Shown here in pieces: positions 199-32,709 of a stretch of 40,193 nt of DNA (within the stretch, counting starts at the first letter, position 1; every line of letters starts with the position of its first letter). The translations under genes and the position numbers were made by a program. A model generated the notes under the pieces. It was not told the origin of the DNA, searched no databases, and saw only the letters and a list, made by a program, of their open reading frames with translations. This stretch comes from Pseudomonadota bacterium (GTDB lineage: Bacteria; SZUA-182; DTGQ01). Where the stretch lies: contig DAOURK010000028.1 in NCBI GenBank assembly GCA_030625085.1, positions 1 through 40,193 on the forward strand, written 5' to 3'.

Positions 199-930
199 CA
201 AGCGTATTAGAAGTTGGTGGTTATTTACTTAAGTTTCGCTAAGTTTTTATCCCGGTATGATATTGCCCATAGTTCCTTCTCCTGAATCCTAAATTGGAGA
301 ATTTTTTAATAACTATGTAATATTACTTTCGCAACTTATTGAAATTTTGCACAAAAAGTCAATTTAATAGTTATTAAAAAGGTAGTACTATGATGAATAT
401 TTTCTAAAAAAATAAAAATAAAAAAAACTAATTGAAAATAAATAAAAAAATCTTATTTCAAACGAATAAATTCGGGTCCGAATGGGAATGAAAATGTATG
501 TATGATCAAACCAAAAAAATAAATCATAATAATGTTTTAATTATCAAAAAATCAATAAGTTGATGACTCTTTATGATCGGTTATAATAATTCAATATAGA
601 GATTTGATGGATATACAGTATAGATCTGACTAGCTAAACCGCTTGATATCAAAAGGATATCCACACATACATAGTTACTAACTTATTTATCCAATTTAGG
701 CTGAATACAGTACTCCTAATGGGGTTTTACATGTACCTCTCGGATCAAAGATCGCGACATATTGAGAACCGCTAATTACTATTGCTCTTTACAGCGATAT
801 TTCCCCGATTTTCAAGGTCACCGAGTATGTCGCACAATTTTAAAAAGCATCTATAAAGCGTTACAACAAATAGGTTACGATTGAAGCAATGACGCTCGAG
901 GCAAATACTATGCAAGTAGGAGCAAGAAAA
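199..930. other. AT-rich gene-less leader before the TIR-STAND gene
   Basis: This stretch of about 730 bases has no supported coding sequence on either strand. It has many A/T runs (410-455) and a short inverted repeat GCGACATA/TATGTCGC at 754-761 and 824-831. It may hold the promoter of the TIR-STAND gene, but no -35/-10 pair was convincing. The length is unusual for an integron cassette, where the gene normally starts close to the preceding attC. Confidence 0.4.
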
Positions 931-3882
931 ATGAAAGATTTTTTTATCAGCTATAACAAGGCAGACCGATCATGGGCGGAGTGGATCGCTTGGCAGGTCG
1001 AAGAAATAGGATACAGTGTTATTCTTCAAGCGTGGGATTTTGGTCCTGGTAGTAATTTCGTGGTTGAAATGCAAAAGGCATCAACTGAAACAGAGCGGAC
1101 CATTGCAGTACTTTCTCCGGATTACCTAGCCGCGGAATTTACTGCAGCTGAATGGTCTGCTGCCTTCGCTAAAGACCCGACCGGGGAAAAGAGACTTCTT
1201 CTTCCAGTACGCGTCAGGGAATATGAACCGCGAGGTTTACTTCATCAGATCGTTTATATCGACTTGGTAAACATTGACGAATCGACAGCCAAGGAGTTGC
1301 TTCATGCTGGCATCAATCTTAATCGCGCGAAACCGATCCTAAAGCCGAAATACCCTAGAACTATAATGAATCAGCCTTCCTATCCCACTACGTCTGGGAA
1401 GTTGAGGTTGCACATAGACACCAATCAAATTAAACAACCACCCGAGTTGCCATTTCTATTTCGTAAAAAGATCCTTAGAAAACTTGACCATTACCTTTCG
1501 AGCGATAAAGTTAGCGTCGTCGGGATCACCGCCGATGGTGGCGTTGGTAAAACGGCCCTTGTTTGGGAATGGATAAAGAAAGTGGAATCGAACTATGAAA
1601 AGCTTGGGATAACAGATATTTTCGCTTATTCATTCTATGACAGAGCAAAGGGCTCGACAGCCGACACTTCAACTCAGTTTTTCGATGACAGCTTTGCTTT
1701 CTTTTTGGGAAGATATACGCCTGAATCGGGTGAGATTAATCAGCCTCACGATCGAGCCTTATATCTGTTTAATCGATTGCCAGCCAGATCGATCTTAATT
1801 ATTGACGGCATTGAATCTCTACAATCTCTTTCTGGCAACCTAAGAGGCGAAATTCCCTTGGACGAGGCGATGCGCGATTTCCTTGAGAGCGCCGCACGCG
1901 AGCAAGACAGCCAGAAAAACCGATTGATCGCAATAACATCAAGGGTGCCTCTGACTGATTTGGAAAACAAGCGAAACGGATACAGATCGATAGCATTAAA
2001 TAACCTTGAACCCAACGAAGGCGCAGCCTTGTTGCGGGAAATAGGCGTCAAATCCACGGAGGATGAGCTTAACACTGATGAACAGAAAGAAAAACAAATG
2101 GAATTAGCAAGTAAAGACATGGATGGGCATTGTCTGTCCCTTATTCTTTTGGGGAAACTTATTGTCTCCCATTTCCACAAAGATCCCGATATAAAATATC
2201 GACATGAAATATTCGAAATTTCTAAGGAAGAGAAAGAGGGCGAAGAGGAGGAGGAATATCAGAAGCATGCTCACCGTATCATGAGATACTATGACGATAT
2301 TGTTGCAAAGCCGTCTGACATGGTCGTACTGCAGATGATGGGGCTATTTCACTCAGCAATGACAATGGAGCAGCAAAATGCACTTACTAAAGCAGAATTT
2401 GCGAGAGGTTTCAAGCCGAATAGATGGGCCGCTATTGCGCAAAAGCTACAAAAATATGGGTTGATGACAGTGATAAATATAGATGGGGAAGAAATATGGA
2501 ACTGCCACCCCTTGGTTCGGGAACATTATCGGGACAAGCTCAAAGAAGATGACAAAAAATGGGTGAATGCTAACCAAATACTAATGAAATTCTTTGAAAA
2601 TTTTTTCCATAACCCGGTAAGGCTCCCTCAAAACCGAGACGAGTTTGTTCATTTTTATCGTGCCATTCATCATGGCTGTCTCGCAGGTCAGTTCACTGAA
2701 GCCCTTCGAATATACGACAAATATATAATACGGGATAGAGGAGAGGGCTATTCCACAAATGAATGTGGTTTGGCGGCGGACGATGTTGCAGCTCTCGATA
2801 GGTTTTTCAAACCGCCTGAATTCCTAGAACCTATAGACACCAATATAACTGCAGGAGACCTTGATTTTCTTTGGGGGCGTAAGGCTTTTTGCTTGACTTG
2901 TCTAGGTCTACTTGATGAGGCCATTAAGAATAGAGAACAGGAGCGTGACTTTTTCATCAAAAGGACGGGGGATCAGCAGACGGTTGTATTGGCTTGTGAA
3001 CAGTTGTCCGCCATTCATGTTATGCGTGGAAATTTAAGTATGGCCAGGGAGTCTGCTGAACAGTCCGTTAACTTTTCTAGTTTTCATGCATGTGGAGAGG
3101 GAGAGAGGGAACGGACACTGTGTAGACTTGGCGCGGTTTTTTATCTCACAAATCAGTTAAAAGAATGCGGTAAGGTGTTTGACGAGGCTAAAAGCTATGC
3201 CATCAATCGACCGCTTATATCGGATTACGGTATTTACTATCGTCTTTATAAACTCGATATAGCCGAGACTGACGATGATTATTTAGAAATACAGCGGGAT
3301 GCAATCGCGGCGTGGCGCTATGATCAGAAATGGTTGGTGCCGAGGGCGCTTGATTTAGTAATGCAGGCGATAGCCACTTATAGAATGCAAAACGGAAAAG
3401 ATGCTGAAAAGAAGGCGGTGGTCATAGAGTTGTTTAAGAAAGCGTTGCAAGATTTAAGTAAATCAGGGAGCGTTGTCTATTTGCCTCACTACTACCTTGC
3501 CGAAGCAAAATTTAATATCGACGTTAGACAAAATTTCAACCTCGCGCAAGATAGTCTAACAAATGCACGGAGAATTGCTGTCTCGCACGGGATGCGGCTT
3601 TTTTCCATCGACTGTAACTTGTTGCAGACAAGGATTTTTCTTGGAATGGAGAACTCCGAAGCTGCTAGAGCAAGCATCAGGAAGGCAAGCGAACAACTTG
3701 GCATCTTACCATGTTACTATTGTCTTCGAGATACTGATATCGCCTTATTGGAAGCAGAACTCGCCGTAGCGGAGAAAAATACTAAGGCTGAAGGTTTACT
3801 CAACCAAGCGAAAGAACTTATAAATAATTCGGGACGTAAAATGCTCGGCAAGCGATTGAAGATAGCTCGCGAAAAACTTTGA
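931..3882 (+). CDS. TIR-STAND NTPase-TPR protein, probable anti-phage sensor/effector
   Basis: The product is a three-part protein of 983 aa. Residues 1-125 are a bacterial TIR domain opening with KDFFISYNKADRSW; E46 in SNFVVEMQKA sits where TIR NADases carry their catalytic glutamate. Residues about 180-460 form a STAND/NB-ARC-like NTPase with Walker A DGGVGKT (K207) and Walker B ILIIDG (D292). The C-terminal 400 or so residues are helical with TPR-like repeats, probably the ligand sensor. In this architecture, sensing is expected to cause NTP-dependent oligomerisation and NAD+ depletion by TIR; that is family knowledge, not seen here. I chose ATG 931 because AGGAG lies 8 bases upstream and the TIR domain begins at once; an in-frame ATG at 889 would add 14 unconserved residues. 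An attC site follows 31 bases after the stop, so this looks like an unusually large cassette. Confidence 0.88.
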   Translation: MKDFFISYNKADRSWAEWIAWQVEEIGYSVILQAWDFGPGSNFVVEMQKASTETERTIAVLSPDYLAAEFTAAEWSAAFAKDPTGEKRLLLPVRVREYEPRGLLHQIVYIDLVNIDESTAKELLHAGINLNRAKPILKPKYPRTIMNQPSYPTTSGKLRLHIDTNQIKQPPELPFLFRKKILRKLDHYLSSDKVSVVGITADGGVGKTALVWEWIKKVESNYEKLGITDIFAYSFYDRAKGSTADTSTQFFDDSFAFFLGRYTPESGEINQPHDRALYLFNRLPARSILIIDGIESLQSLSGNLRGEIPLDEAMRDFLESAAREQDSQKNRLIAITSRVPLTDLENKRNGYRSIALNNLEPNEGAALLREIGVKSTEDELNTDEQKEKQMELASKDMDGHCLSLILLGKLIVSHFHKDPDIKYRHEIFEISKEEKEGEEEEEYQKHAHRIMRYYDDIVAKPSDMVVLQMMGLFHSAMTMEQQNALTKAEFARGFKPNRWAAIAQKLQKYGLMTVINIDGEEIWNCHPLVREHYRDKLKEDDKKWVNANQILMKFFENFFHNPVRLPQNRDEFVHFYRAIHHGCLAGQFTEALRIYDKYIIRDRGEGYSTNECGLAADDVAALDRFFKPPEFLEPIDTNITAGDLDFLWGRKAFCLTCLGLLDEAIKNREQERDFFIKRTGDQQTVVLACEQLSAIHVMRGNLSMARESAEQSVNFSSFHACGEGERERTLCRLGAVFYLTNQLKECGKVFDEAKSYAINRPLISDYGIYYRLYKLDIAETDDDYLEIQRDAIAAWRYDQKWLVPRALDLVMQAIATYRMQNGKDAEKKAVVIELFKKALQDLSKSGSVVYLPHYYLAEAKFNIDVRQNFNLAQDSLTNARRIAVSHGMRLFSIDCNLLQTRIFLGMENSEAARASIRKASEQLGILPCYYCLRDTDIALLEAELAVAEKNTKAEGLLNQAKELINNSGRKMLGKRLKIAREKL

Positions 3883-3913
3883 ATACTGCGACGATGCTCT
3901 TAAAACAGCTATC

Positions 3914-3982
3914 TCCTAACGAGACTTTAACCCGACCCTTCGCTCGCAGGCCCGCTCCGGTCGGGTTACGCATGGGTTAGGT
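3914..3982 (+). repeat. attC integron recombination site (site B, best example)
   Basis: The left box is TCCTAAC (3914-3920) and the right box is GTTAGGT (3976-3982), an exact match to GTTRRRY. A perfect inner stem AACCCGACC (3929-3937) / GGTCGGGTT (3959-3967) lies between them. The 69-base length falls in the usual attC range. It sits between the stop of one TIR gene and the ribosome binding site of the next, exactly where an attC belongs. Confidence 0.8.
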
Positions 3983-4002
3983 TTAAAAATGAGGTTCTGA
4001 TT

Positions 4003-4725
4003 ATGAAAATATTTCTATCGCATCGCAGTCGAGACAAGCCGCTAGTTCAAGACTTTAAGGAGCTTCTGCCTCCATTTCTGAACACTTGGCTCGATGACGA
4101 AAGCCTCTTATGGGGCGGTTCGCTTGCAACCAAGATTAAGTCTACCATCCAGTCGGAAATCGATTTTGTGGTGATTTTTCTGGATGACGATTCCCTTGGC
4201 TCCTCGTGGGTACGACAGGAGCTTGATTGGGCAATCCAACGAGAGCAGGAATTGAATAGAACATTTGTTCTCCCAATCTTGCTTCCTGAAGTTGTACCAG
4301 AACAGTTGCCTGGGCAACTCTCCGAGCGACTATGTCTGCGCCTTAGCGATTATGGTCTTGCATCAATTGAGGCGTTGGCCAGGCGAGCGAGTGAGAAACT
4401 ATTTCAGTTGATCGTTGAGAGTTACTCTTGTCTGCAATCGGAGATCCCACGCCGCAAGTCCAAGTCGCTCAAAGAGATTCATGATGAGCTTAGAGGCAGG
4501 CAAGTAATACTATTGGGCTATGTTGTTCAGCAATGCCAGGATGGGGCAGAGGTAACACAGCGATACATTGAAAAAGCTATGCGCGAATTTCACGCATCAG
4601 AACTATACTATCGCCTTGAGACATTGATACACCAGGGCTTCCTTGCTAAACGGAGAATCTCAGAAGACGGTTTGTTCTCATATAGGCTGACCGAGGACTT
4701 TCAAGCCGTACTTTCTGAAACTTAA
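4003..4725 (+). CDS. TIR-domain protein with C-terminal winged-helix-like domain
   Basis: The product is 240 aa. Residues 1-145 are a TIR domain: KIFLSHRSRDK at the N-terminus, WLDDESLLWGG at 29-39, hydrophobic strand DFVVIFLDDD, then SSWVRQELDWA, the typical S-x-W-V-x-x-E-L signature. A basic linker (PRRKSKS) leads into residues 155-240, which look like a winged helix-turn-helix (SLKEIHDEL, then ALxxLxxxGFL-like text and YRLTEDF). TIR proteins of this type are often NAD-consuming or signalling parts of immunity, but a catalytic glutamate cannot be assigned with certainty (E33 or E52). GAGG lies 8 bases before the ATG, and the start is 20 bases after attC site B, the standard cassette layout. 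It is probably an autonomous cassette, not a partner of the upstream TIR-STAND gene, although both could act in defence. Confidence 0.8.
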   Translation: MKIFLSHRSRDKPLVQDFKELLPPFLNTWLDDESLLWGGSLATKIKSTIQSEIDFVVIFLDDDSLGSSWVRQELDWAIQREQELNRTFVLPILLPEVVPEQLPGQLSERLCLRLSDYGLASIEALARRASEKLFQLIVESYSCLQSEIPRRKSKSLKEIHDELRGRQVILLGYVVQQCQDGAEVTQRYIEKAMREFHASELYYRLETLIHQGFLAKRRISEDGLFSYRLTEDFQAVLSET

Positions 4726-8325: not shown

Positions 8326-8586
8326 ATGATGACAGATACGGAAATAAAATTAAAAGGATTTCAGATATTAACCAAGTCTCTTGGAAATGTTGAGGCAGAA
8401 CGTTTTATTGCATTAATTCAACGAGAGCCATTTGATTATACAAGGTGGCGTGATGGTTTAGATGAGGATTTATCTATAAAAGAAATCAGTAATAGAGCGA
8501 TGAAATTGAGAAAAAAAACTGCCGAACCAGGCGCAAAAACCATTTTAAAACCATTAAATAATTTAGGAGGATATTATGGATGTTGA
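8326..8586 (+). CDS. Small conserved-type protein of unknown function
   Basis: The product is 86 aa and is preceded by an excellent AAGGAGGT (8312-8319) 6-7 bases before the ATG. The first 65 residues are charged and helical: TDTEIKLKGFQILTKSLG, then VEAERFIALIQREPFDYTRW and LSIKEISNRAMKLRKK. The middle phrase resembles small proteins of about 70 aa that I recall from cyanobacteria and other phyla, with no assigned function. The last 20 residues are low in conservation signs and overlap the start of the next gene by 11 bases, so the two genes are probably co-translated. It could be an antitoxin-like partner, but nothing proves that. Confidence 0.6.
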   Translation: MMTDTEIKLKGFQILTKSLGNVEAERFIALIQREPFDYTRWRDGLDEDLSIKEISNRAMKLRKKTAEPGAKTILKPLNNLGGYYGC

Positions 8587-9619
8587 ATTTCATTATTATA
8601 TTACATATCTAATTGCAAAGAAGGCGGGATTCTCTAATGAAGATTCATCAATTATTGCATACTCATCTCAATATGTTGATGACAATACAATGATTTTTAA
8701 AATTAATAAAGACACTGCCGAATATTATAAAAATTATATTAGTCAGACAATGAATATCTTAAAACCAAAAGCAAAATTGTTTCGTATTTATCCTCTTTTC
8801 CATTTTATTCCTGGTGATCCACTTTCTACAACTGCACTGAGACGTGATGGCAAGATGCAATGGTTAAATACAACTCCGGATAGTACAAATGCCAATAAAA
8901 TACTTGATAAAGCGCTAAATACAGATAATAAATATAGAATAGGAATAGCTATTCATTCTTTTGCTGATACATGGGCTCATCAAAATTTTATTGGCTATTA
9001 TGATGAATTTAATTCTATGACAGGTGTCTTAGAAAAAGCCATACCCGATATTGGTCATGCTGATGCAAGGCATAATCCGGATTGGCCCGGGCTTGTATGG
9101 AAAGATAAAAGGTTGCTTGGCCAAAATTCAAGAGTAAATAATAAAGAAAGATTTTGCTTAGCTGCAAAAAGGATTTTTGAAAAGTTGTATAGACATATAA
9201 ATGCAGAACCAAATAACTCAGAACTTACTAAAATGCAAAATGAATTAGTAGAAGACATTAAAATTGCATTAAAAGAAAGAGACCAGGATAATTCTTTGGA
9301 TAAAGTTCGGATTAATCGATATATCAGATTGTCAGAAACTGCGCCTTATGGAGGCAAAACTTTAATAGAATACGATGAAGACGAATGGTTCGATGATGCT
9401 GTAAATGAAGATGTTAGAGGTTTGAGAGATAAATCTGATTTCTCTTTATCTCGATGGGATCCATTTACAGATCAATATACATGGAAAAATATATTAAAGT
9501 ATAAAGAAAAGCCTTGGTTTAAATTTCAAGAGGCTGTAATTGCTCATCAAAATGATGCTTGGGATGTACTAAATGAAGTAACTTTTTCAAAACTAGATTT
9601 AGACATAAATACATTTTGA
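8576..9619 (+). CDS. DUF6765-type protein, probable zinc-phospholipase-C-like fold
   Basis: The 347-aa product begins MDVEFHYYITYLIAKKAGFS followed by SIIAYSSQYVDDN, and later has HFIPGDP, AIHSFADTWAHQNFIG and GHADARHNPDWPG. The spaced His and Asp residues are those expected of DUF6765-family proteins, which I place near the alpha-helical S1/P1 nuclease and phospholipase C fold that binds metal ions. The enzymatic activity is unknown. There is no signal peptide, so it is probably cytoplasmic. TAGGAGG (8564-8570) lies 5 bases before the ATG. The stop codon abuts a hairpin that may end transcription. The gene is AT-rich like its neighbours and may belong to the accessory cassette region. Confidence 0.62.
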   Translation: MDVEFHYYITYLIAKKAGFSNEDSSIIAYSSQYVDDNTMIFKINKDTAEYYKNYISQTMNILKPKAKLFRIYPLFHFIPGDPLSTTALRRDGKMQWLNTTPDSTNANKILDKALNTDNKYRIGIAIHSFADTWAHQNFIGYYDEFNSMTGVLEKAIPDIGHADARHNPDWPGLVWKDKRLLGQNSRVNNKERFCLAAKRIFEKLYRHINAEPNNSELTKMQNELVEDIKIALKERDQDNSLDKVRINRYIRLSETAPYGGKTLIEYDEDEWFDDAVNEDVRGLRDKSDFSLSRWDPFTDQYTWKNILKYKEKPWFKFQEAVIAHQNDAWDVLNEVTFSKLDLDINTF

Positions 9620-11852: not shown

Positions 11853-12132
11853 CAGCAAATCTAATTTTAGTATTTTTATGTGACTTTTTTAAAACAAAAA
11901 ATTTATAACAGAATTGCTGTCAAATTAGTCTTGAAATTTTTACTTTAATACTATATCATTTAAAGAGTTGTTATATATTAATATACTATCTTATGAACGT
12001 GGTAAAGTTAATTGAGTCCTTCAGGGGGGTAATTGAAGGAGGTGATTGTTGTAAGGATAAAGTAATTAAGCTTATCTTTTCCATTTTAGGCAATTTTAAT
12101 TTAAAAGAATAGAGAAATAAGAGGTAGGGCTT

Positions 12133-12696
12133 ATGGATATTAAAAATGTTAGCAATATAAAACTTTTTTTCCTCCTTATGGTCATCATGGTTTTAGGAAT
12201 TTTTCTGATTCAAAGTCCTTCCAGTGTAAATGCCTATTGGCAACCACTTCCCCCTTATAATACACTTTGGCCTTTATGGTCGCCGATCTTGTCCCCCATT
12301 GATCCTCTGACCGGGATCCCCGTGCCGATTATCAATGAACTGACCCCGGAGACAATCCTCCCGGTGCAACCCGCATTAACTTGGGACCCACGGCAAGTTA
12401 ATCCGTGGCTTCTCTATAACAGCCCTTATGGACTTTGTTATTACGACCCCTTATATGGAATAGATCTTTGGCCCCCCGATTCTCTTCTTGATCCTCTCAC
12501 AGGTCTCATTGCCCCCATTAATTTTCTTTTACTCAAAACCTATTATACCGCCTTAGCCCCAACCAGCGCTTCCTGGCTCACGAGCAATGTTCCCTTAGCC
12601 AATTTGTTCTTTTATAATACCTATCCCTCAATAACAGTGGCCTCCACCCCTGCATTCTCATCATTCCTGACTCCTGCTCAATTGCTGGGATTATAA
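12133..12696 (+). CDS. Exported Pro/Trp-rich protein of unknown function, paralog 1
   Basis: A 187-aa protein with a Sec signal peptide: hydrophobic FFLLMVIMVLGIFLI and a likely cut after SVNA, before YWQPLPP. The mature part is rich in Pro, Leu, Trp and Tyr, with PPYNTLWPLW, ILSPIDPLTGIPVP, TILPVQPALTWDP and GIDLWPPDSLLDPLTGL. No catalytic motif or membrane anchor is evident. The next gene is a clear paralog sharing nearly all these phrases. The DPLTG and WPP elements recur within the protein, suggesting an extended, repeat-based surface or envelope structure. AGAGGT lies about 8 bases before the ATG. I do not recognise a named family. Confidence 0.7.
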   Translation: MDIKNVSNIKLFFLLMVIMVLGIFLIQSPSSVNAYWQPLPPYNTLWPLWSPILSPIDPLTGIPVPIINELTPETILPVQPALTWDPRQVNPWLLYNSPYGLCYYDPLYGIDLWPPDSLLDPLTGLIAPINFLLLKTYYTALAPTSASWLTSNVPLANLFFYNTYPSITVASTPAFSSFLTPAQLLGL

Positions 12697-12801
12697 GCTG
12701 TTTACAGTATATTCCGGGGCTATAACTGTAACACACAATGAAAAAAAAATTTAAAGCCATGATGGGAAATTGCTAAAACAAAATACGAAAGGAGATTAAC
12801 A

Positions 12802-13422
12802 ATGAATTGGAAAAAAACATGGAAAAATATACTTTTTATCATACTGTTTTTGGGAGTATTAAGTATACTGGTTTCACCAATTGCCGAGGCACAATTCTGG
12901 CAAGCGCTTCCTCCTTACAACACCCTCTGGCCTTTGTGGAACCCGATCCTCTCCCCGGCAGACCCGGTTACCGGTTTCCCGACGCCTATCGTTAACAACT
13001 TAAGGCCCACTACTATACTACCGGTCCAACCTTGTCTGACCTGGGACCCAAGCTGGGCTTATCCTTTTCTTTTATATAATACGCCTTTGGGAATGGCCTA
13101 CTATGAACCTGCTCAGGGTGTAAACCTCTGGCCACCGAAATATCTGGTTGATTCGGTTACCGGCCTGCCTCTGCCTATTCCTCTGCCGACATTTTATGTA
13201 AACTATACCCCCTCTGCCGCTGATTGGTTACTCAATAATGTTCAAACGGCCAATCTCAGTTATATCGCCAACTATCCTTCTTTTGCCCTTACTGCTAATC
13301 CTATTGTACTGCCTCCTGTTCTTACCTCAGCTTTGCCGGGTTTGGATATTGCCTTAATCAACCTGGTTCAACCGCCCCCCAGCATAACCAGCCTATTAAA
13401 CGCCGGACAGCTTATTTATTGA
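12802..13422 (+). CDS. Exported Pro/Trp-rich protein of unknown function, paralog 2
   Basis: A 206-aa paralog of the upstream gene. The signal peptide (ILFIILFLGVLSILV) should be cut after IAEA, before QFWQALPP. Shared blocks are PPYNTLWPLW, ILSPADPVTGFPTP, TILPVQPCLTWDP and GVNLWPPKYLVDSVTGL. The C-terminal 60 residues diverge (Ala/Leu/Pro-rich, ending LNAGQLIY). AAGGAGA lies 7-8 bases before the ATG. The intergenic gap is 105 bases and both genes are followed by one strong hairpin at 13444, so they may form an operon made by tandem duplication. Function unknown; an envelope or extracellular role follows from the signal peptide. Confidence 0.7.
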   Translation: MNWKKTWKNILFIILFLGVLSILVSPIAEAQFWQALPPYNTLWPLWNPILSPADPVTGFPTPIVNNLRPTTILPVQPCLTWDPSWAYPFLLYNTPLGMAYYEPAQGVNLWPPKYLVDSVTGLPLPIPLPTFYVNYTPSAADWLLNNVQTANLSYIANYPSFALTANPIVLPPVLTSALPGLDIALINLVQPPPSITSLLNAGQLIY

Positions 13423-13443: not shown

Positions 13444-13478
13444 CGGATAGGCATGGGGAAAAATCCCATGCCTATCCG
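13444..13478 (+). terminator. Strong hairpin after the paralog pair
   Basis: CGGATAGGCATGGG (13444-13457) and CCCATGCCTATCCG (13465-13478) form a perfect 14-bp stem with a 7-base loop, 21 bases after the second paralog's stop. A T-tract is lacking, but the position suggests transcription termination or mRNA stabilisation. Confidence 0.6.
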
Positions 13479-13933: not shown

Positions 13934-13966
13934 TTGTATTTTGTGGTAAAAACGATGGAGAAAAAA

Positions 13967-15190
13967 ATGCTCAACAGCACATCCAAGCCCTATCAAGTAA
14001 AAACAAAAAAATATGTGTCTTTGTATTTATTTTTAGTATGCCTCATTCTCTTGACCCTCCCTGCTTGCGGAGGTGGCGGCGGCGATGCCGGCGTGGAGTC
14101 CGAAATCGGTACCCATGAAATCCCCATGGAGACCATAGGCTTGAAAAAAGAATGGTCCTTTTCTACGGGCAACAAAATCTATTCCTCCCCCGCGATCGCT
14201 CAAGACGGCACTATCTATATTGGCAGTAACGATGGTTATCTGTATGCTTTAGATCCAAATCGCACCTTAATTTGGCCACCATTTCAAACAGGAGGAGGAA
14301 TTTTTTCCTCCCCCACAATTGGAGATGACGGCATTATCTATGTAGGAAGTAATGATAAAAATCTCTATGCAATTTACCCTGACGGAACTCAAAAATGGTT
14401 TTATCCGACTAAAGATAAGGTTCTTTCAACTCCCGCGCTGGATCACAATGGCATTATTTATGTAGGAAGTAATGATGGAAACTTGTATGCAATCACTTCT
14501 GAGAAAGAAGAAAAGTGGTCAGTCGCTTTAGGAGGATGGGTTTCTTCTCCCATCATCGGAGAAGATAATACAATTTACGTTGGAGCCGGGAAGGTAAACC
14601 TGAATTATCCCGGTCAATCAACAGGGCGGCTTTATGCCCTGGAACCTGATAATGGCGTAATCAAATGGAAGACAGAATTTAACGTTTCCTCAAGACCGGC
14701 CATAGGTTCTGATGGAACCATTTATGCCGGAAGCACAAATAACAATCTTTATGCTCTTGATCCTGATGATGGTACAGAAATATGGAAATATACCACGGGG
14801 GGTCCGATCCTATCCTGTCCTAAGGTTCTTGAGGGTGAAACGGATATTATCATTATCGGCAGCGATGATAAAAATTTATATGCTTTTAACTCCGATGGGG
14901 GAATTATTTGGAGTGCTCAGCTAGGCGAGAAAATTCGCTCTTCAGCCGGAATAGGCCCGGACGGCACCATCTACATTGGCTGTCATGATAAGTGTTTGCA
15001 TGCTTTCGATGCGGAAGATGGTGCTCCTATAGGATATTTTCCAACACGCGGTTACATCACCTCCATTCCGGCAGTTAGCGAAGATGGGACTATTTATTTC
15101 GGCAGTCAGGACTCAAAAATCTACGCTCTTACAAGGATTACGGGGGAAAATAAAAATCGAAAAGGAAGAGATAACAATGTCCGGATTTAA
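13967..15190 (+). CDS. PQQ-type beta-propeller repeat lipoprotein (1)
   Basis: The product is 407 aa. The signal peptide SLYLFLVCLILLTLPAC has a clean lipobox (LPAC), so the mature protein is a lipid-anchored envelope protein beginning CGGGGGD. The rest is a run of about eight PQQ/BamB-like repeats of roughly 40 aa, each with a phrase such as GTIYIGSNDGYLYAL followed by a W and SSPAIG. Such propellers are usually structural or binding modules; there is no evidence that this one binds PQQ or is an enzyme. I chose ATG 13967 because GGAG (13957-13960) sits 6 bases upstream; ATG 13955 and TTG 13934 are alternatives. It overlaps the next PQQ gene by 14 bases. Confidence 0.82.
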   Translation: MLNSTSKPYQVKTKKYVSLYLFLVCLILLTLPACGGGGGDAGVESEIGTHEIPMETIGLKKEWSFSTGNKIYSSPAIAQDGTIYIGSNDGYLYALDPNRTLIWPPFQTGGGIFSSPTIGDDGIIYVGSNDKNLYAIYPDGTQKWFYPTKDKVLSTPALDHNGIIYVGSNDGNLYAITSEKEEKWSVALGGWVSSPIIGEDNTIYVGAGKVNLNYPGQSTGRLYALEPDNGVIKWKTEFNVSSRPAIGSDGTIYAGSTNNNLYALDPDDGTEIWKYTTGGPILSCPKVLEGETDIIIIGSDDKNLYAFNSDGGIIWSAQLGEKIRSSAGIGPDGTIYIGCHDKCLHAFDAEDGAPIGYFPTRGYITSIPAVSEDGTIYFGSQDSKIYALTRITGENKNRKGRDNNVRI

Positions 15191-18113
15191 AAAAATATAT
15201 AAGGCAACCCGCCCTTTTCCAATTAACCGGTATGTTAGCATAGCGCTCTTTTTAAGTTTCATTTTTCTTCTATCATCCTGCGGAGGTTCCGGTGGAAATA
15301 ATGTGCCATCTAATACATTTCTCCTATCCGGTCGAATCAACGGCCCCGTTCAAGAAGGAATCACCCTTCAGGTGAGGGAGGGAAACACTCCAATCAATAC
15401 TACGGTGACAGATGAAAATGGGCAATATTCCTTTACTCTACCCTCTGGTCTCTATACTATTATTCCCTCTCTAGACAAATATATTTTTACTCCCAGCAGC
15501 CAAAGCCTGACACTTAATGGAAACACTGAAGCTCATTTTATTTCTTCCTTTAAACCATATACATTATCAGGCGCTATTACGGGAGATATCCACGCAGAAG
15601 GTGTACTGCTCGATATAGAGGGTTATGATATTACAGGCAATATGGTAAATAAAAATATCACCTCCAATTCCGACGGCAGCTTTGAATTTACTGCTCTGCA
15701 AAGTGGATCTTATACAATCACACCCTGTCTTGAGGGATATGCTTTTACGCCTCCCTATACAGCGGTAGTGGTTACAGGAACAAGTGACATAATAGATAAA
15801 AATTTTGAAGCACGCTACCTATGGGATTTCCAACAATGGCCCTATTCAATACAAAATGCTGTTTTCTCTTCTCCCGCTTGCGCATCGAACGGTACTATTT
15901 ATATAGGTTGTGATGATTATACCCTCTATGCCTTTGATTCCGACGGCTCATTAAAATGGCACTACACAACCCAGGACAAAATACGTTCCTCACCGGCTAT
16001 CGGACCTGACGGGACCATTTATATTGGCAGCGACGATCAAAACCTTTATGCCCTCAGCCCTAATGGCAGCTTGAAATGGACCTATCCCACTCAGGACAAA
16101 ATTCAATCCTCACCGGGTATCGGACCTGATGGGACCATTTACGTTGGCAGCGATGACTATAACCTTTATGCCCTCAATCCTAACGGCGGCCTGAAATGGA
16201 CATACCCCACCCAGGACAAAATACGTTCCTCGGCGGCTATCGGACCTGACGGGTCCATTTATATTGGCAGTGATGATTATAACCTTTATGCCCTCAATCC
16301 TGACGGTTCCCTGAAATGGACATATCTCACCCGGGACAAAATTCAATCTTCTCCGGCTGTTGGCCCTGATGGAACCATTTACGTTGGCAGCGATGACTAT
16401 AACCTTTATGCCCTCAACCCCAATGGCAGCCTGAAATGGTCTAACCCTACCCTGGATAAGATACGATCATCACCGGCTATCGGACCTGATCGTTATATTT
16501 ATGTAGGTAGCGACGATGGTTGCCTGTATGCCTTTACTTCAAACGGCACCCTCAGATGGTCATATGCCACTCAGGGCAAAATCCGATCTTCACCGGCGCT
16601 GGGTGGTGACGAAACCATCTGGGTGGGAAGTGATGACCAGCGAATCTATAGTCTTAAAGCTGATGGTTCACTTAAGGCAATTTTCAGCACCCAAGGTCCT
16701 ATTCAATCCTCCCCTGCCATAACAAATGAGGATACACTCTTTATTGGCAGCAATGATGGAAACATCTACGCCTTGCCTGCTTATTGTCAGGGAATGCCCC
16801 AAGACTGTTGGCCCATGTTTAGAAAAGATAACCGGCACTCGGCTCAAAGCCGACAGATCTCCCTTTATACTATCTCCGGGGAAATTTCCGGTGATGCTGT
16901 AAAAGGAATTATGGTAAAACTCAAAAATAAATATAATGATGATTTGGTAAACGAGACCATCACAGATCAGGAAGGGGTATTCAGCCTAAGGGCCCCTAAT
17001 GAGGATTATACTCTCACGCCCACTAAATCAGGCTACCAATTCATACCCCCTTATATAACAATGAGCGTTAATGATTGGCCTAGTCCCGGTCATCAGTTCT
17101 CCTCAATTAGCCTGATTGGGACCTTTAAATGGAAACTTACCACCAATAATGCCATCTATTCTTCAGCGGCTATCGGCCCTGACGGCACTATTTATATAGG
17201 AAGTTACGATAAGAAACTTTATGCTGTTAATCCGAGCGGAAGATTTTACTGGGCCTATCCCACTCAGGAAGGCATCTTTGCCTCGCCAGTCGTTGACCCC
17301 GAAAAAGAAACCATTTACATAGGCAGTACTGATCATTATGTTTATGCGTTAAACTTCCAGGGAAATAGAAAATGGCGAACTCTATTGGGCGATAACATTC
17401 TCTCCACCGCCGCTATTGGTTCGGATGGGACCGTCTATATCGGATGTAACGACACATATCTCTATGCTCTTAACCCTGCGAATGGAGAAAAAATATGGTC
17501 GACACACCTGACCGACATGGTCTCCTCTCCAGCCATTGGCCCTGATGGGACTATTTATGTGGGAGCAGGCAGCTTCACCAAAAACACTGGGCTCTTTTAT
17601 GCTGTAAACCCTGGAGATGGGAGTATTAAATGGACCGCCGACAAATGTATTCTCTCGCGTCCGGCTATAGGAGACGATGGAATTATCTATGCGGGAAGCG
17701 TGGACACAAAAATCTATGCCCTTCACCCTGATACGGGTCTTCCTGAATGGAGTTATAAAACAGGGGGAAAGATATTTTCCTGCCCTGTCATAGGACCTGA
17801 CGGCATCATATACATTGGCAGTGACGATACGAAAATGTATGCCCTCACCCCTTCAGGATCACTCAAATGGGCTGCATATACTGGAGGAGAAGTCCGTTCC
17901 GCCGCCGCTGTCGGCCCTGACGGCACCATCTATGTCGGGAGCAGGGATCAATATTTATACGCTTTTGATCCGGATACGGGCAATCAAAAATGGCGTTTTC
18001 ACACAGATGATGTCATTACTTCCATTCCCGCCGTTGGAACAGACGGCACTATTTATGTAGGGAATCAAGAAGGTTTATTTTACGCCATATATGGTGAAGA
18101 CGAAGCATTATAA
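15177..18113 (+). CDS. Large PQQ-type repeat lipoprotein with CarboxypepD-regulatory-like domains (2)
   Basis: The product is 978 aa. The signal peptide ends with FLSFIFLLSSCGGSGG (lipobox LSSC). Two beta-sandwich domains follow (LLSGRINGPVQEGITLQV and LSGAITGDIHAEGVLLDIEG). Next comes a propeller with eight or so 40-residue repeats of the form DGTIYIGSDDxNLYAL, and a third CarboxypepD-like domain (YTISGEISGDAVKGIMVKL). A second propeller closes the protein. Between 15841 and 16680 the repeats are exactly 120 bp each with no indels, a sign of recent expansion or conversion. ATG 15177 has GGAAGAG (15164-15170) and overlaps the previous stop by 14 bases, so the pair is co-translated. Likely an envelope scaffold or adhesion/binding protein; activity unknown. 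Confidence 0.82.
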   Translation: MSGFKKIYKATRPFPINRYVSIALFLSFIFLLSSCGGSGGNNVPSNTFLLSGRINGPVQEGITLQVREGNTPINTTVTDENGQYSFTLPSGLYTIIPSLDKYIFTPSSQSLTLNGNTEAHFISSFKPYTLSGAITGDIHAEGVLLDIEGYDITGNMVNKNITSNSDGSFEFTALQSGSYTITPCLEGYAFTPPYTAVVVTGTSDIIDKNFEARYLWDFQQWPYSIQNAVFSSPACASNGTIYIGCDDYTLYAFDSDGSLKWHYTTQDKIRSSPAIGPDGTIYIGSDDQNLYALSPNGSLKWTYPTQDKIQSSPGIGPDGTIYVGSDDYNLYALNPNGGLKWTYPTQDKIRSSAAIGPDGSIYIGSDDYNLYALNPDGSLKWTYLTRDKIQSSPAVGPDGTIYVGSDDYNLYALNPNGSLKWSNPTLDKIRSSPAIGPDRYIYVGSDDGCLYAFTSNGTLRWSYATQGKIRSSPALGGDETIWVGSDDQRIYSLKADGSLKAIFSTQGPIQSSPAITNEDTLFIGSNDGNIYALPAYCQGMPQDCWPMFRKDNRHSAQSRQISLYTISGEISGDAVKGIMVKLKNKYNDDLVNETITDQEGVFSLRAPNEDYTLTPTKSGYQFIPPYITMSVNDWPSPGHQFSSISLIGTFKWKLTTNNAIYSSAAIGPDGTIYIGSYDKKLYAVNPSGRFYWAYPTQEGIFASPVVDPEKETIYIGSTDHYVYALNFQGNRKWRTLLGDNILSTAAIGSDGTVYIGCNDTYLYALNPANGEKIWSTHLTDMVSSPAIGPDGTIYVGAGSFTKNTGLFYAVNPGDGSIKWTADKCILSRPAIGDDGIIYAGSVDTKIYALHPDTGLPEWSYKTGGKIFSCPVIGPDGIIYIGSDDTKMYALTPSGSLKWAAYTGGEVRSAAAVGPDGTIYVGSRDQYLYAFDPDTGNQKWRFHTDDVITSIPAVGTDGTIYVGNQEGLFYAIYGEDEAL
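15841..16780 (+). repeat. Tandem array of 120-bp coding repeats
   Basis: Seven to eight consecutive units share the same 120-base phase, each containing text like ATCGGACCTGACGGGACCAT, GGCAGCGACGAT, CTTTATGCCCTCAA and TGAAATGG. Units at 16081, 16201 and 16321 are the most alike. The array encodes propeller blades of the lipoprotein at 15177. Confidence 0.85.
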
Positions 18114-27482: not shown

Positions 27483-28103
27483 TCAATATACCTCACCAAT
27501 AAAACAACTCTGAAAGCTTGTTCCGCTTTCTTCATCCCAATTACCGGCAGTGCTTTCATAATCAAACGGTGTACCCCATTCATTAACGACCTTTAACATG
27601 GTCGCATCTTTTGTGTCTGCCTGATTTGGCCCCAAATTACTATCATAGTTAAAGTCAATAGAGTTTGCATCCAAATCAACGCCCGCCAACACCTTGAAGT
27701 TAATATAAAAAAGATCACCGGCAGGCAAAGGCTCTTCGTTAAAATCTTCCGCTCCCACGCTCACCTTAATTATTCCGGGATTATTTGGATCAATACTTGG
27801 ATAGACGACCTTATGATTGAGGGAAGAAGAAGAAACCACATCTGAACTTTGCACAGGTTGAAAAAGCTCCGGAACGTATCTGATAGCAGCGCTTAAACTG
27901 ACCGGAACTGCATTGGCATCTTTTTGGATAGTGAAATAAACTCGGCGAACTTGCCCGGTTTGCGTTGTCATATCCTCAAATCGAAGACCAAAGGACACTT
28001 CATTCGCTGCAGGGACAACAGCAGCATGTGCTTGAAGAATGAAAAAAGCAAAAATAAAAAAACCCAAAAAGCTCAAGCCGAACATCTTTACCAAAGACTT
28101 CAT
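27483..28103 (-). CDS. Exported cohesin-like domain protein
   Basis: The product is 206 aa. The signal peptide (FGLSFLGFFIFAFFILQAHA) is cut before AVVPA. The mature protein reads as one cohesin-like beta-sandwich: GQVRRVYFTIQKDANAVPVS, LSAAIRYVPELFQPV, GIIKVSVGAEDFNEEPLPAG and LFYINFKVLAGVD follow the usual cohesin strand pattern. Cohesins bind dockerin modules in secreted complexes; outside cellulosomes they occur in many surface proteins of unknown role. No dockerin was seen in this window. AAAGGAGT lies about 7 bases before the ATG. It might work with the large CarboxypepD-repeat protein nearby, which is also exported; that is inference. Confidence 0.65.
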   Translation of the reverse strand: MKSLVKMFGLSFLGFFIFAFFILQAHAAVVPAANEVSFGLRFEDMTTQTGQVRRVYFTIQKDANAVPVSLSAAIRYVPELFQPVQSSDVVSSSSLNHKVVYPSIDPNNPGIIKVSVGAEDFNEEPLPAGDLFYINFKVLAGVDLDANSIDFNYDSNLGPNQADTKDATMLKVVNEWGTPFDYESTAGNWDEESGTSFQSCFIGEVY

Positions 28104-28478
28104 ATTTCACTCCTTTGGATACTCATACGCAATTCCGAATTTTTTCTTTTTCCCGGTATAAAATTTTAAGACCTCTTTGGTCCCTGCTTCCCCGGATCAG
28201 GGGAGCAAAATACTAATCGGTAAACAGAATAAAACGCCTCTCCCATTTCTTGTTTACTTATCGCTAAAATTTACGCTGACTTTAAAAAAATATACCTATT
28301 CCATCTATTCAAAAAAACCTAACCTGAATTCATCTGCGCCGAAAAAGTCAAAATTCGACGTATAAAGCGTTGACTGTGAGCGATGCAATGGAAGAAAGTA
28401 AAGTATGAGGTTAGGTGAGCCTCGCTTTCGACTCTTTGTTGGAGACCATTTGTATGGTTTACCGGCGAAAAATCTTGA
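28104..28478. other. Spacer with no supported gene
   Basis: Several short open frames occur here on both strands, but none shows protein-like composition, a good ribosome binding site or a recognisable motif. The right end may be a more decayed part of the thioredoxin-like pseudogene that follows. Confidence 0.4.
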
Positions 28479-28765
28479 TTTTTGGCGGAGAGTAAAAACC
28501 TGCTTCAGGTGTGGAATAAACCAACCAGTATCCGAATATTGGTTACCCTCACATGCTCCATTGTTCTCAAGCAATAAAAACAGCCCACAAGCTCGCCTTT
28601 GAAAACGCCTTGATTAGTTCTGAACTGATTGATATAGGAACATTCCTTCATTTGGCAGGTAAATACCAGCTTCGTGGTATTCCCAAAGTGGTGATTAATG
28701 GAAGCGTGCATTTTGAGGGGGCGTTACTGGAAGCTCAATTCGTTGACCGGATTCTTCAAGCCTAA
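28479..28765 (+). pseudogene. Frameshifted thioredoxin/glutaredoxin-fold protein fragment
   Basis: The frame from 28479 reads KNLLQVWNKPTSIRILVTLTC up to the first cysteine at 28554-28556. The frame from 28559 continues HCSQAIKTAHKLAFEN, then GTFLHLAGKYQLRGIPKVVI and GSVHFEGALLEAQFVDRIL. Joined, this is the C-terminal domain of a protein-disulfide-oxidoreductase-like family, with a C-x-H-C active site and the cis-Pro loop GIPKVVING. One base is missing between the two active-site cysteines, so no intact product can be made without frameshifting. The N-terminal half of such proteins is absent. An open frame from ATG 28553 alone would give only the second part. The strong hairpin at 28786 is probably its old terminator. 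Confidence 0.68.
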
Positions 28766-28785
28766 TCCAATGTTTTCTTTAATCC

Positions 28786-28826
28786 ATATCGGCCTTGAGG
28801 ACGTTCTTCATCCTCAAGGCCGATAT
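28786..28826. terminator. Strong bidirectional-type hairpin
   Basis: ATATCGGCCTTGAGGA (28786-28801) and TCCTCAAGGCCGATAT (28811-28826) form a perfect 16-bp stem with a 9-base loop. It lies 21 bases after the thioredoxin-like pseudogene and between it and the convergent giant surface-protein gene. Confidence 0.75.
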
Positions 28827-28950
28827 AACCTCTTTGTATGACTAATAAAAAAAAATTTTAGTGCTTATCTGTTTGTAATAAACACCTATCACTAAAACAA
28901 AGGTAATATAGTTTCATATTTAACAATAGGCCTTCTGTAAGTGACAGTGC

Positions 28951-31900
28951 TTATAAAACAGCCGCCGCCTCCATCAGCAGCAGGAGATGTGGTTTCAATG
29001 CCTCATCAGTTTGAATAAAGGCGGCAAATTTGCTTAAATGATTTACATCGAAGGTAATAGTAAAATTGTTCCAATTTATCTTCGTATTGGATATCCCATC
29101 AGTCTGCCATTGTTGAATATTCACATTAAAATAGCGAACCTCAAAGGTGTTTTCGAATTCTTGGTGTGTCATGCCTGCGGGTAATTCGAAACTCATGGTT
29201 ACCGTTATTGAATGGTTTTCAGCAATAGAAACATTACCATCTTCAAAACAAAAATCATAGACAGCGCTAACCGACTGATCATTTGTTCCCTCAACATTTT
29301 CCCCAGGATCACCATAGCGCTCTATGGTTAAAGCGACAGCAGTAGTATCATCAGCCCCTGCCAAGGCAAAGGGCGGCACTGATACTTTCGTATTATCCTG
29401 TACACCCATCATAGTCAAATCGCCGCCAACGGCATTGGTTATATTAGTAGTCGTTGTGCAGGTGATATCAGAACTGACTTCAAAACTAAAAATCTTACCG
29501 CCCGACATTCCATTGCTTGTGCCTTCTATCTCTATCTCCACAACTATGTCATTACTATCCGCGGCATAGTTTATGGTAAACTGGGAATCTGAAACCTTAT
29601 TGGGATCGCTGAGCGTACCATCGCCTGTTATGATACTGAAATTGGGATCATCCACTAAGTCTACGTCAGAGAAAAAAACCATGGAAAGTTTTGGTGGTGT
29701 ATCATCGCTCACCGTGGAGCTAACTGTAAATTCGGGTGCAAAAGTAACTAATACAATGTTTTGATCCGTTAGCGCCTCACTTTCTCCCAGAGGAATGGTG
29801 CCTGTATCAGGGTAAACCGTCACCCCATAGCCGTCAGCATTAACTGCCAGCAAATATTCCCCTGGGATTAGCTCCTCAATCTTGAAAATGCCTCCGACAG
29901 TGGTTTCTTGCTTATGCGTAGCATCGGTTGTATTATACGCCACCACAGTAGCTCCATTCACATTTTCGCCATTAGCGTTTTTAACTGTTCCTTCAATAGA
30001 ACCAACTGAGGAGTCCAAAGTGAAATCTTCGGTTGTGGTTTGACCATCGATAATGGTAATAGCTTGTTCCAGCGTTGCATAGCCGGATTTAGTAATAGTG
30101 ACCGTGTAGTTCCCAGAATTCAGTCCTGTAATTGCATAAGAGCCCAATGCAGTCGTAACCGACGTCTTGCCATTTTCTTCGATCTTTACCACCGCGCCTG
30201 CAATGGAATTTGCATCATCCATAACATTCCCTGAAAGGGTCCCCCCTGAACCAAATAAGATATCCCGGGTAGTGACAGCATCTTGATTGACTACTATATT
30301 TTGATATACCTGTGTGGCATAACCGTCTGATATCGCGCGCACAGTATAAGTACCCACCGGCATTTGACCAATACTATAGGTAGATCCAACTTCAGGCATA
30401 GCAACTGCATCGGGAAAGACCGCATGGATATTATTCTGATTAAAAACCGCAATTATGGTTCTTTTAAGTGTGCAGCCCGTGGGAGCAGAAATATCTCCTT
30501 TCAGGGTCCCCAAAGTAGTACTCGCAGTAAGATTTTGATTCGACAATTCCGAGCCGGCGGTTAGACTCAATCTTTTCCAATCATCAAAGACAACAGAAAA
30601 ACAAGAGTCTGCTGCGGCAAAAAAACCTATACAAACATCAACATTGCCCGGGGGCAGGATAAAGGAATAACTTCCTTCTATCTCAGAATTACTGTCCTGA
30701 AAATAATCATCATACCCGTCATCCGGATCTGTCATCCCCACAAAGGAACTTCCCCCTAAATCAAGATAATCCTGGTCGGTATATTCAACATCAGATGAAA
30801 CAGCGAAAATACAACTAGTCCGGATGCCATATTCGTCATAATCCCCTTCATCGTATAATGGCAAAGGGATACCATCAACATCTTTTGGTTTGATGGCATC
30901 ATAATTGGTAATTTTCCCTGAAACAACCGCCGCCTGGTCGGGACTTTTCATAACCAGATCACAATCAGTTAAATTGCCTGAAGTAATGACAACTCCGGAC
31001 TTTCTGCCCATCATCCATCCGCTTTTTTCAGCACTTACATTATAGGTCCCGGGGGCAAGATAATCTATGGTATATTGCCCAAAAGCATCGGTATACACCT
31101 CATCTTGCCCTGATTCATATCCATCTTCATCATGTCCATTAACCTCTACCTCTGCTCCGGCTATCGGGACGCCATTTTCATCAGTGACTTGTCCTTTAAG
31201 GGTCCCGGCCACCAATACTGTCATATCAGGCGCTTCGACAGTTACCCCAGGCGTTATCGTAAAGGGACCGACATGCTGCCTGCCCCTTGCATATTTAACC
31301 TCATCCTGTGCCACTGCCTGGCCCCATAAATCTATATAAGCATAGGCGTGGTCGGTAACAGGCACACTTACCAGGGTGTAATAGCCGTTAGCATCGGTAA
31401 AGGCATCCGGGTCGTCAATCATGCCTACGCTTGGGTCTATCTCCACATCCGCAATACCCACGCCATTTTCATTGACCACACGTCCATGAATCCTGCCGCT
31501 TTCATTGAGAAAAAAATCAGGTCCACGAACACCATCTAAGGTGGCCTGATATAATCCCGGATCAACCTTGGCTTCATAATGTATTGGATCTGTATTAGTC
31601 CGGCCATCATTGCGGATATGAACTGTTAGGCTTGTGTTATTAGGATCAGGCTCAACCAGTATATATCCCCCCTCATCATCCCAATTCTGCCGATAATTGA
31701 TGGAAGCATATTGCCCGTCAGGCTCCCCATTAACATTTCCCCAACCATCTATATCCCCGCCTGAATCTATTCCATAATAATTATTATTTGAGCCTTCTAC
31801 AGCATCTACCTTAGTTAAATATCCAGGTTCGGCAATAATTATATAATAGTCGTAAGAGTCATCACCATTGAATGTGTCAGTGCCCGTACCGGTCCCTAAT

Positions 31901-32709
31901 AGTGTATACCCATGAGCTTCAGGGTTCAGTGCGTTTTCCCCATCGATATATTGTGAACCCCCATAGACTTTATACATTGTGCCGGGGGTCAAAGCCTGTT
32001 GGACATGTACAGGATAAAATTTTCCGGAGGATGGTAAAAGCCATAATTCATATATTCCAAGGCTCGAAACTTCATTAGTTTGGTGCCAATCAGTGCCATC
32101 TTCAGTATATGAACAATTAGCTACAACTCGCGCATATGGTATCGGATCACCGGCCGAGGTTTTAATATAGCCCCAGATGCGGCCTGCTCGGCGAAGGGTG
32201 AAATTAATATTGGGTGTTTCAGCTCCCTCAAAAACCTGAACATTATACATATCAGTATCAACATAATGTATACCCTGTGAATCTTGTGGATGATAGAAAT
32301 GGATATGATATTGCCGCTCGGTCAGTCCGGTAAACTCATAATAACCTAGATAGCTTGTATTGGTATTGTCAACCCAATTCCAGGCTTCACTACCGGCCCA
32401 ATAAGGATCATCACTCTCATTAAGATTAAACCAAACATTATCTATTGGGTTGCCATCTTCATCTTTTACATAACCTGAGATAAAGCCGGTCCCTCCGAGG
32501 CTATAACGCGTTGGGGATAATTGAGAGGTTTTTTGTAAAGAAGTCATATTTAGCCCCTCGCACACTTTTCCCCTTACCCTTACCATTACATCGTTATGAA
32601 TTTTACTTTCGAATAGATTTTTTGCCTTAACCCGCCCTGCACTAAATAAAAAAATGGCGCATAAAAGCCCGACAATTAATACCACTATCTTTGACCAATA
32701 TTTACTCAT
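28951..32709 (-). CDS. Giant exported CarboxypepD-regulatory-repeat protein, C-terminus frameshifted
   Basis: The product is 1252 aa. A Sec signal peptide (IVVLIVGLLCAIFLFSAG, cut near VKA) is followed by about eight CarboxypepD-regulatory-like beta-sandwiches. Examples are GFISGYVKDEDGNPIDNVWF, GRIWGYIKTSAGDPIPYARV, GRIHGRVVNENGVGIADVEI, GTLKGQVTDENGVPIAGAEV and GSIEGTVKNANGENVNGATV. A different C-terminal region follows (KVSVPPFALAGADDT, LSKFAAFIQ). I prefer ATG 32709, with GGGAGG 8 bases upstream, to ATG 32727. The last residues, HLLLLMEAAAVL, come from a shifted frame. The +1 frame reads IETTSPAADGGGGCFIST and would run to 28892. That matches the GGGG-CFIATA-type C-terminal tail common on such surface proteins, so a 1-base deletion near 28999-29001 is likely. 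Confidence 0.82.
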   Translation of the reverse strand: MSKYWSKIVVLIVGLLCAIFLFSAGRVKAKNLFESKIHNDVMVRVRGKVCEGLNMTSLQKTSQLSPTRYSLGGTGFISGYVKDEDGNPIDNVWFNLNESDDPYWAGSEAWNWVDNTNTSYLGYYEFTGLTERQYHIHFYHPQDSQGIHYVDTDMYNVQVFEGAETPNINFTLRRAGRIWGYIKTSAGDPIPYARVVANCSYTEDGTDWHQTNEVSSLGIYELWLLPSSGKFYPVHVQQALTPGTMYKVYGGSQYIDGENALNPEAHGYTLLGTGTGTDTFNGDDSYDYYIIIAEPGYLTKVDAVEGSNNNYYGIDSGGDIDGWGNVNGEPDGQYASINYRQNWDDEGGYILVEPDPNNTSLTVHIRNDGRTNTDPIHYEAKVDPGLYQATLDGVRGPDFFLNESGRIHGRVVNENGVGIADVEIDPSVGMIDDPDAFTDANGYYTLVSVPVTDHAYAYIDLWGQAVAQDEVKYARGRQHVGPFTITPGVTVEAPDMTVLVAGTLKGQVTDENGVPIAGAEVEVNGHDEDGYESGQDEVYTDAFGQYTIDYLAPGTYNVSAEKSGWMMGRKSGVVITSGNLTDCDLVMKSPDQAAVVSGKITNYDAIKPKDVDGIPLPLYDEGDYDEYGIRTSCIFAVSSDVEYTDQDYLDLGGSSFVGMTDPDDGYDDYFQDSNSEIEGSYSFILPPGNVDVCIGFFAAADSCFSVVFDDWKRLSLTAGSELSNQNLTASTTLGTLKGDISAPTGCTLKRTIIAVFNQNNIHAVFPDAVAMPEVGSTYSIGQMPVGTYTVRAISDGYATQVYQNIVVNQDAVTTRDILFGSGGTLSGNVMDDANSIAGAVVKIEENGKTSVTTALGSYAITGLNSGNYTVTITKSGYATLEQAITIIDGQTTTEDFTLDSSVGSIEGTVKNANGENVNGATVVAYNTTDATHKQETTVGGIFKIEELIPGEYLLAVNADGYGVTVYPDTGTIPLGESEALTDQNIVLVTFAPEFTVSSTVSDDTPPKLSMVFFSDVDLVDDPNFSIITGDGTLSDPNKVSDSQFTINYAADSNDIVVEIEIEGTSNGMSGGKIFSFEVSSDITCTTTTNITNAVGGDLTMMGVQDNTKVSVPPFALAGADDTTAVALTIERYGDPGENVEGTNDQSVSAVYDFCFEDGNVSIAENHSITVTMSFELPAGMTHQEFENTFEVRYFNVNIQQWQTDGISNTKINWNNFTITFDVNHLSKFAAFIQTDEALKPHLLLLMEAAAVL

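Follow-up and report, generated by a model that had tools for sequence, protein, structure and literature searches.

The two genes at 12133-13422 of the stretch analysed here, a contig of 40,193 nucleotides (the window), belong to an undescribed, lineage-restricted, multi-copy family of exported proteins. The best explanation, to which we give about even confidence, is that this is a lineage-specific exported structural coat family, part of it expressed from mRNAs that are stabilised in the manner of the STAB-SD element. The heuristic signal peptides, the composition, the copy number, the limits of the lineage, purifying selection and the enrichment of a leader element were observed directly; the structural role is one that we infer by reasoning. 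The greater surprise is the leader element.

The gene pair and its family

Both ORFs were found on the same strand exactly as a prior sequence-only reading had called them, in the region starting at 12133, with a gap of 105 bp between them (Table 1). The two proteins are paralogs, with 52% identity over 161 aa (E 1e-53). The blocks that they had been said to share occur in the same order in both, after different N-terminal signal peptides, and the sharing is beyond chance – the same blocks were found again in 100 ORFs of five genomes. These 100 family ORFs, called as longest ORFs, come from the window plus 73 other regions that were retrieved; L123, one of the latter, gave none, its match being a fragment.

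A downstream hairpin had been described as common to both genes. There is a strong one after the second gene, with a perfect 14-bp inverted repeat (13444-13457/13465-13478; z -4.73, 0 of 200 shuffles), but the first gene has none: there the folding equals that of shuffled sequence (z -0.16) and the inverted-repeat search found nothing, so a hairpin behind each gene was rejected. The single hairpin may terminate a transcript common to both genes.

Table 1. Positions of the gene pair, its sequence elements and associated genes (window coordinates, except for loci with an L number)
Feature	Position	Strand	Basis
Leader element TGAAGGAGGTGATT, about 99 nt upstream of first gene	12034-12047	+	Duplex energy -20.3 kcal/mol
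First paralog, 187 aa exported protein	12133-12696	+	ORF calling, paralog comparison, family search
Signal peptide of first paralog, putative cleavage after SVNA	12133-12234	+	Hydrophobic core, Kyte-Doolittle heuristic
Internal repeat unit A of first paralog (YNTLWPLWSPILSPIDPLTGIPVPI)	12256-12330	+	Duplication tested on family consensus
Internal repeat unit B of first paralog (YDPLYGIDLWPPDSLLDPLTGLIAPI)	12442-12519	+	Duplication tested on family consensus
Ordinary Shine-Dalgarno of second gene, AAAGGAG	12788-12794	+	Read from sequence
Second paralog, 206 aa exported protein	12802-13422	+	ORF calling, paralog comparison, family search
Signal peptide of second paralog, putative cleavage after AEA	12802-12891	+	Kyte-Doolittle heuristic
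Hairpin 3' of second gene, probably ending the pair's transcript	13444-13478	+	Folding z, inverted-repeat search
Unrelated Pro/Thr/Tyr-rich exported families	L052:357-1583, L073:12526-14413, L090:7678-10142, L096:1188-1736, L113:1612-3567		
Gly/Tyr-repeat proteins of the YYGGLYGG type	L131, L136, L138, L144, L166, L199, L202, L204, L227		

The window is contig C97 of a genome (G000) with 14 family copies. The profile search that the sequence-only reading had proposed was run on nine genomes of the phylum and found the family in five, all of one order, with 14, 20, 23, 33 and 13 matches (the count for G002 takes in a few short fragments). The family was missing from the four other genomes of the class in this search. 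A search of 60 genomes, G000 among them, matched these five and no others. A GTDB contig collection gave 26 loci, all from three MAG records (JAUWIR, JAILZY and JAFGSM), and no relatives were found among the phages, plasmids and viral contigs searched. Record JAUWIR (CSMAG_2299; loci L025 and L110) belongs to the same taxonomic family as G000, and its title, Pseudomonadota bacterium, may be a mislabel.

Most copies are lone genes scattered among unrelated neighbors, and there are arrays of five family genes at L073, L107 and L119. Between the two closest genomes, G001 and G003, 19 of 20 copies were reciprocal best hits, and 17 of these also had a neighbor family in common; the orthologs had a median identity of 82%, compared to 57.5% with the best paralog within the genome. 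From the reciprocal hits, the shared neighbors and the higher identity of orthologs than of paralogs, it follows that the paralogs are old and have each been retained. G002 (L110) and G003 (L070) each have an orthologous counterpart of the whole window pair; for its equivalent in G001, the contig starts just ahead of the second gene. Orthologous copies in different genomes had a dN of 0.06–0.29. The copies are under purifying selection, because dN/dS was about 0.07–0.17 in the ortholog pairs with unsaturated dS (0.78–1.9).

The proteins had been described as an unrecognised exported family rich in Pro, Trp and Tyr, and this holds: no match to a characterised family lay above the cut-off in Pfam, NCBIfam, PHROGs or the PDB. 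Neither window protein matched a Pfam family at the gathering score, and a Pfam scan of 28 members gave two single-member hits at chance level and nothing else. The sole NCBIfam/Pfam hit of the window proteins was VraH_fam (NF033835), at 12.9 bits and E 0.081 against a curated cut-off of 40, and it covers only residues 2-27, which are the signal peptide. PHROGs gave no match above cut-off, the best PDB sequence match was not significant (E 0.47), and the peptide PPYNTLWPLW occurred in no paper of the collection searched.

Protein composition and predicted structure

Each window protein has a hydrophobic signal peptide followed by a chain rich in Pro, Leu, Trp and Tyr. In the family alignment the order of conserved blocks is AQNW-PPYNTLWPLWSP-LSP-DPxTGLPTPI-LPVQPGLTWDP-PWLLYNTPLGMAYYDPLYGINLWPPSYL-DPxTGLPLPI, and a more variable C-terminal part follows. 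A signal-peptide core was found in 97 of the 98 motif-bearing ORFs, a count made with a hydrophobicity rule rather than SignalP and with two N-terminally cut ORFs left out. The mature chain is 17.3% Pro, 15.6% Leu, 5.9% Tyr and 4.6% Trp, while Lys, Arg, Asp, Glu and His together make up about 5.5%; the median for charged residues was 26% in a background of 676 non-family genes from loci picked around the family genes. The spaced DPxTG and WPP motifs, which had been taken for an extended binding surface, are real and are accounted for by an internal duplication: the first and second DPxTGxPxPI blocks align with a local score of 67, where shuffled sequences averaged 36.9 (sd 7.0) and a single one in 1000 scored as high.

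Structure prediction had also been proposed. AlphaFold2 on 28 members gave two models (pLDDT 75.8 and 73.6, pTM 0.68 and 0.73), but no similar solved fold was found with the first of them: the best Foldseek E was 2.0, and 0 of 142 chains reached Z 2 or more in VIA-align. Common to both models are a short beta-meander at about residues 58-79 and a helix at about 110-129, and in both the most conserved N-terminal motif is of low confidence.

Could these be secreted or surface proteins whose repeated Trp/Tyr/Asp-Pro segments bind carbohydrate, peptidoglycan or mineral, with a different ligand for each paralog? The W, Y, D and P columns that are invariant across the 28 aligned members, the small ordered meander and helix of both models, and the many paralogs with variable C-termini would all agree with binding. 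However, no similarity to a binding domain was found by sequence or fold, charged residues and His, which could serve metal or polar ligands, are nearly absent, and the extreme composition runs along the whole chain. We consider binding unlikely, if by no means far-fetched. The low charge, the copy number, the neighboring genes and a leader shared with flagellin and pilin-like genes (below) fit a structural coat better than a ligand-binding surface.

A leader element complementary to 16S rRNA

The first clue to the leader element came from upstream k-mers, which gave AAGGAGGTGA far from the start codon. In the window the element lies just outside 12133-13422, the coordinates of the sequence-only reading, and is complementary to the 3' tail of 16S rRNA; a check for start codons behind it turned up a single TTG, whose frame ends after one more codon. 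The expected 16S tail, GGATCACCTCCTTTCT, was found in the 16S of a relative, G003, and no 16S was found in G000.

Pairing energy with this tail was computed on leaders minus their last 30 nt, and elements below -17 kcal/mol were considered strong. Thirteen of the 100 family genes were left out (upstream sequence shorter than 70 nt, N present, or duplicate protein). A strong element was present in 35 of the 87 remaining family leaders and in 19 of 464 non-family leaders, likewise taken from loci picked around the family genes (Fisher p 2e-18); the rate was 4.3% in 1740 length-matched draws and 0.6% in 174 shuffled leaders. The 14-mer starts at a median of 124 nt before the start codon (range 51–344). 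Only 3 of the 12 G000 family leaders assessed had a strong element, that of the window's first gene among them. When the orthologous leaders of the window pair were compared across three genera, the block GGAGGTGAT was invariant, while most flanking positions differed; the sole difference just before it is an A to G change that keeps pairing with U, and a second orthologous leader has the same kind of change.

Strong leaders of non-family genes also tended to precede exported proteins (12 of 19, vs 128 of 445 of the others; p 0.003), though at a looser cut-off of -15 the enrichment was not significant (p 0.13). The element does not seem to sit within a conserved promoter or a structured leader: apart from A/T-rich words and a few with low counts, no word exceeded shuffles, and the search for gapped motifs gave nothing prominent. 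A sigma-54-type promoter upstream was rejected, matches to it being sparse (4 of 99 within the last 200 nt).

In the whole of G000, AAGGAGGTGA occurs 44 times, all of which were covered, vs 13 times for the reversed control. The distinct sites number 42: 22 are leaders, 5 are a gene's own Shine-Dalgarno, 7 lie within coding sequence, and 8 were unassigned. Sixteen of the 22 leaders precede exported ORFs, 11 of them charge-poor, and many of these charge-poor ORFs encode Gly/Tyr-repeat proteins. With the window gene excluded, 10 of 21 leaders precede charge-poor exported genes, compared to 33 of 658 background genes (p 8e-8). Of the 46 sites of the control Shine-Dalgarno AAGGAGGAAA, 30 were covered; 2 of these were leaders, and neither preceded an exported ORF. 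The AAGGAGGTGA leader also stands before a flagellin gene (L145) and a gene resembling a type IV pilin (L150). In G003, where 30 of 56 sites were covered and 2 of the 56 are the 3' ends of its 16S genes, 13 of 15 leaders precede exported ORFs. Since the same is true of 7 of 10 leaders in the four genomes without the family (G005–G008; 30 of 49 sites covered), the leader element is probably older than the family.

Exported Gly/Tyr-repeat proteins of the YYGGLYGG type, with almost no charge and unrelated to the family, were seen with the leader element at nine loci (Table 1).

A similar element is known from cry3A of Bacillus thuringiensis, where a Shine-Dalgarno near -129 (the STAB-SD) is bound by the 30S subunit but does not initiate translation, and RNase J1 is blocked (PMC4113751). 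The elements described above resemble it in lying far upstream (a median of about -124, about -129 in cry3A) and in their complementarity to 16S rRNA, strong in the 35 family leaders and judged here with the G003 tail. They may also be non-initiating; 30 of 39 strong leaders had no start codon 3–11 nt behind the core. A further likeness would be a place on mRNAs of very abundant products. They differ from the cry3A element in standing before many exported-protein genes in another lineage, and in the nuclease concerned. RNase J (TIGR00649) was over cut-off in 0 of the 5 genomes and was rejected as the blocked nuclease. Since RNase J was found in none and RNase E/G in all 5, any stabilisation by the leader would probably act against a nuclease other than RNase J.

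The element might instead open a leader peptide that has been missed, or be a GGA site bound by CsrA, rather than a non-initiating 30S site. Nine of the 39 strong leaders do have a start codon in range, mostly opening frames of 1–4 codons, but start codons there are no commoner than a chance rate that we put by hand calculation at roughly a third. CsrA controls flagellin mRNAs in other bacteria, which would favor a CsrA site; however, CsrA (PF02599) was found in 0 of the 5 genomes and was rejected as the reader of the leader, 3 of 35 strong sites lack any GGA, and the upstream flanks have no obvious shared motif. A leader peptide or CsrA site is improbable.

Genomic surroundings

Genes for charge-poor exported proteins are enriched next to family genes. 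They made up 14 of 127 immediate neighbors vs 19 of 531 genes farther away (Fisher p 0.002), and 20 of 237 genes within two positions vs 13 of 421 farther away (p 0.004); the statistic covers this class of neighbor only. The proteins are small, have hardly any charge, and are unrelated in sequence to the family, and such genes adjoin the arrays of five at L073 and L107.

More unrelated exported families, rich in Pro, Thr and Tyr, with about 0.5–3% charged residues and runs of Thr, were noted near or next to family genes (Table 1).

The commonest neighbor families were sigma-54 regulators with histidine kinases, sulfatase-like TPR proteins, and PQQ propellers; they look like large families in general and were rejected as functional partners. 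Directly downstream of the window pair (13934-18113) are genes for two large PQQ beta-propeller proteins that look exported or lipoprotein-like, and PQQ-propeller-like genes are also found near family copies in G001 and G003.

The propeller genes behind the window pair, together with mature chains that are Leu/Trp/Pro-rich and charge-poor, would be in keeping with hydrophobic envelope proteins that bind lipid or outer-membrane components, as packing factors in the periplasm or outer leaflet. We regard this as quite improbable, since sharing the leader with flagellin and a pilin-like gene suggests that the family forms structures outside the cell. Bacteriocin-like peptides or effectors against competitors, kept in many allelic copies, might also be small, exported, multi-copy and partly in arrays of five, but are very improbable here: the family proteins are anionic (median net charge -4) and strongly conserved rather than diversified, and the neighbors include no small gene that recurs and might confer immunity.

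A proposed structural coat

The proteins are best read as building blocks of an extracellular coat because they are hydrophobic, charge-poor and exported, are retained in many copies, and have other charge-poor exported proteins as neighbors. Removal of the signal peptide would leave a nearly charge-free chain, rich in Pro, Leu, Trp and Tyr and built from the internal duplication, that most likely leaves the cell. There the mature proteins most likely associate with one another by way of the invariant PPYNTLWPLW, TWDP, LYNTPxGMAYYDP and WPP segments, and the product would be an insoluble coat, sheath or matrix to which many paralogs and further charge-poor exported proteins contribute. Some family members would probably be made in large amounts from long-lived mRNAs, on many of which a putatively non-initiating extended Shine-Dalgarno could keep a 30S subunit bound close to the 5' end, protecting the message. 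Extracellular location, self-assembly, abundance and mRNA stabilisation are thus steps that we infer.

Some of the evidence weighs against this account. The conserved Trp, Tyr and Asp residues would equally suit ligand binding; the lack of a fold match, the low model confidence of the conserved N-terminal motif, and the scatter of most copies as lone genes among unrelated neighbors speak against a coat; and the small number of strong leaders in G000 and the missing RNase J speak against the leader part.

The chaplins and rodlins of Streptomyces and BslA of Bacillus are secreted coat proteins that self-assemble. The likeness is an analogy of working – these are small, secreted, hydrophobic proteins with several paralogs, restricted to a lineage, and thought to coat cells – and their secretion by signal peptide is matched, by the heuristic, in nearly all family ORFs. 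No relation in sequence or fold to chaplins or BslA was found (no Pfam or PDB match), the window family has far more copies, and it is Pro/Trp-rich with an internal duplication, whereas chaplins, rodlins and BslA have amyloid or Ig-like cap folds. The PE/PPE proteins of mycobacteria are expanded exported families, and share with the window family a conserved N-terminal part, a variable C-terminal part, many copies per genome and restriction to one lineage. Unlike PE/PPE, the window family is exported by a signal peptide; its composition is different, and no homology was found.

A wider proposal is put forward tentatively, as possible but doubtful: that this uncultured class tags messages for its extracellular proteins with an extended Shine-Dalgarno leader that does not initiate, so that stability across a whole coat regulon depends on 30S binding instead of a protein regulator, and that in one order a large charge-free extracellular coat rests on this system and includes the conserved, highly duplicated PPYNTLWPLW family. 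A family that is conserved, expanded and confined to a little-known lineage probably underlies an overlooked cell-surface structure. The leader element would offer a handle, read from DNA alone, for predicting the abundant extracellular proteins of these uncultured bacteria, and a ribosome-based mRNA stabiliser outside Gram-positive bacteria becomes a testable idea.

Other genes in the window

Two adjacent genes at 889-4725 encode TIR-domain-like proteins, the first with an NTPase and a TPR-like part (by eye), and are possibly a candidate defence system. A DUF6765 protein is encoded at 8576-9619. On the reverse strand, 27483-32727 encodes exported proteins that resemble, by eye, cohesin-type and carboxypeptidase-regulatory-repeat surface proteins.
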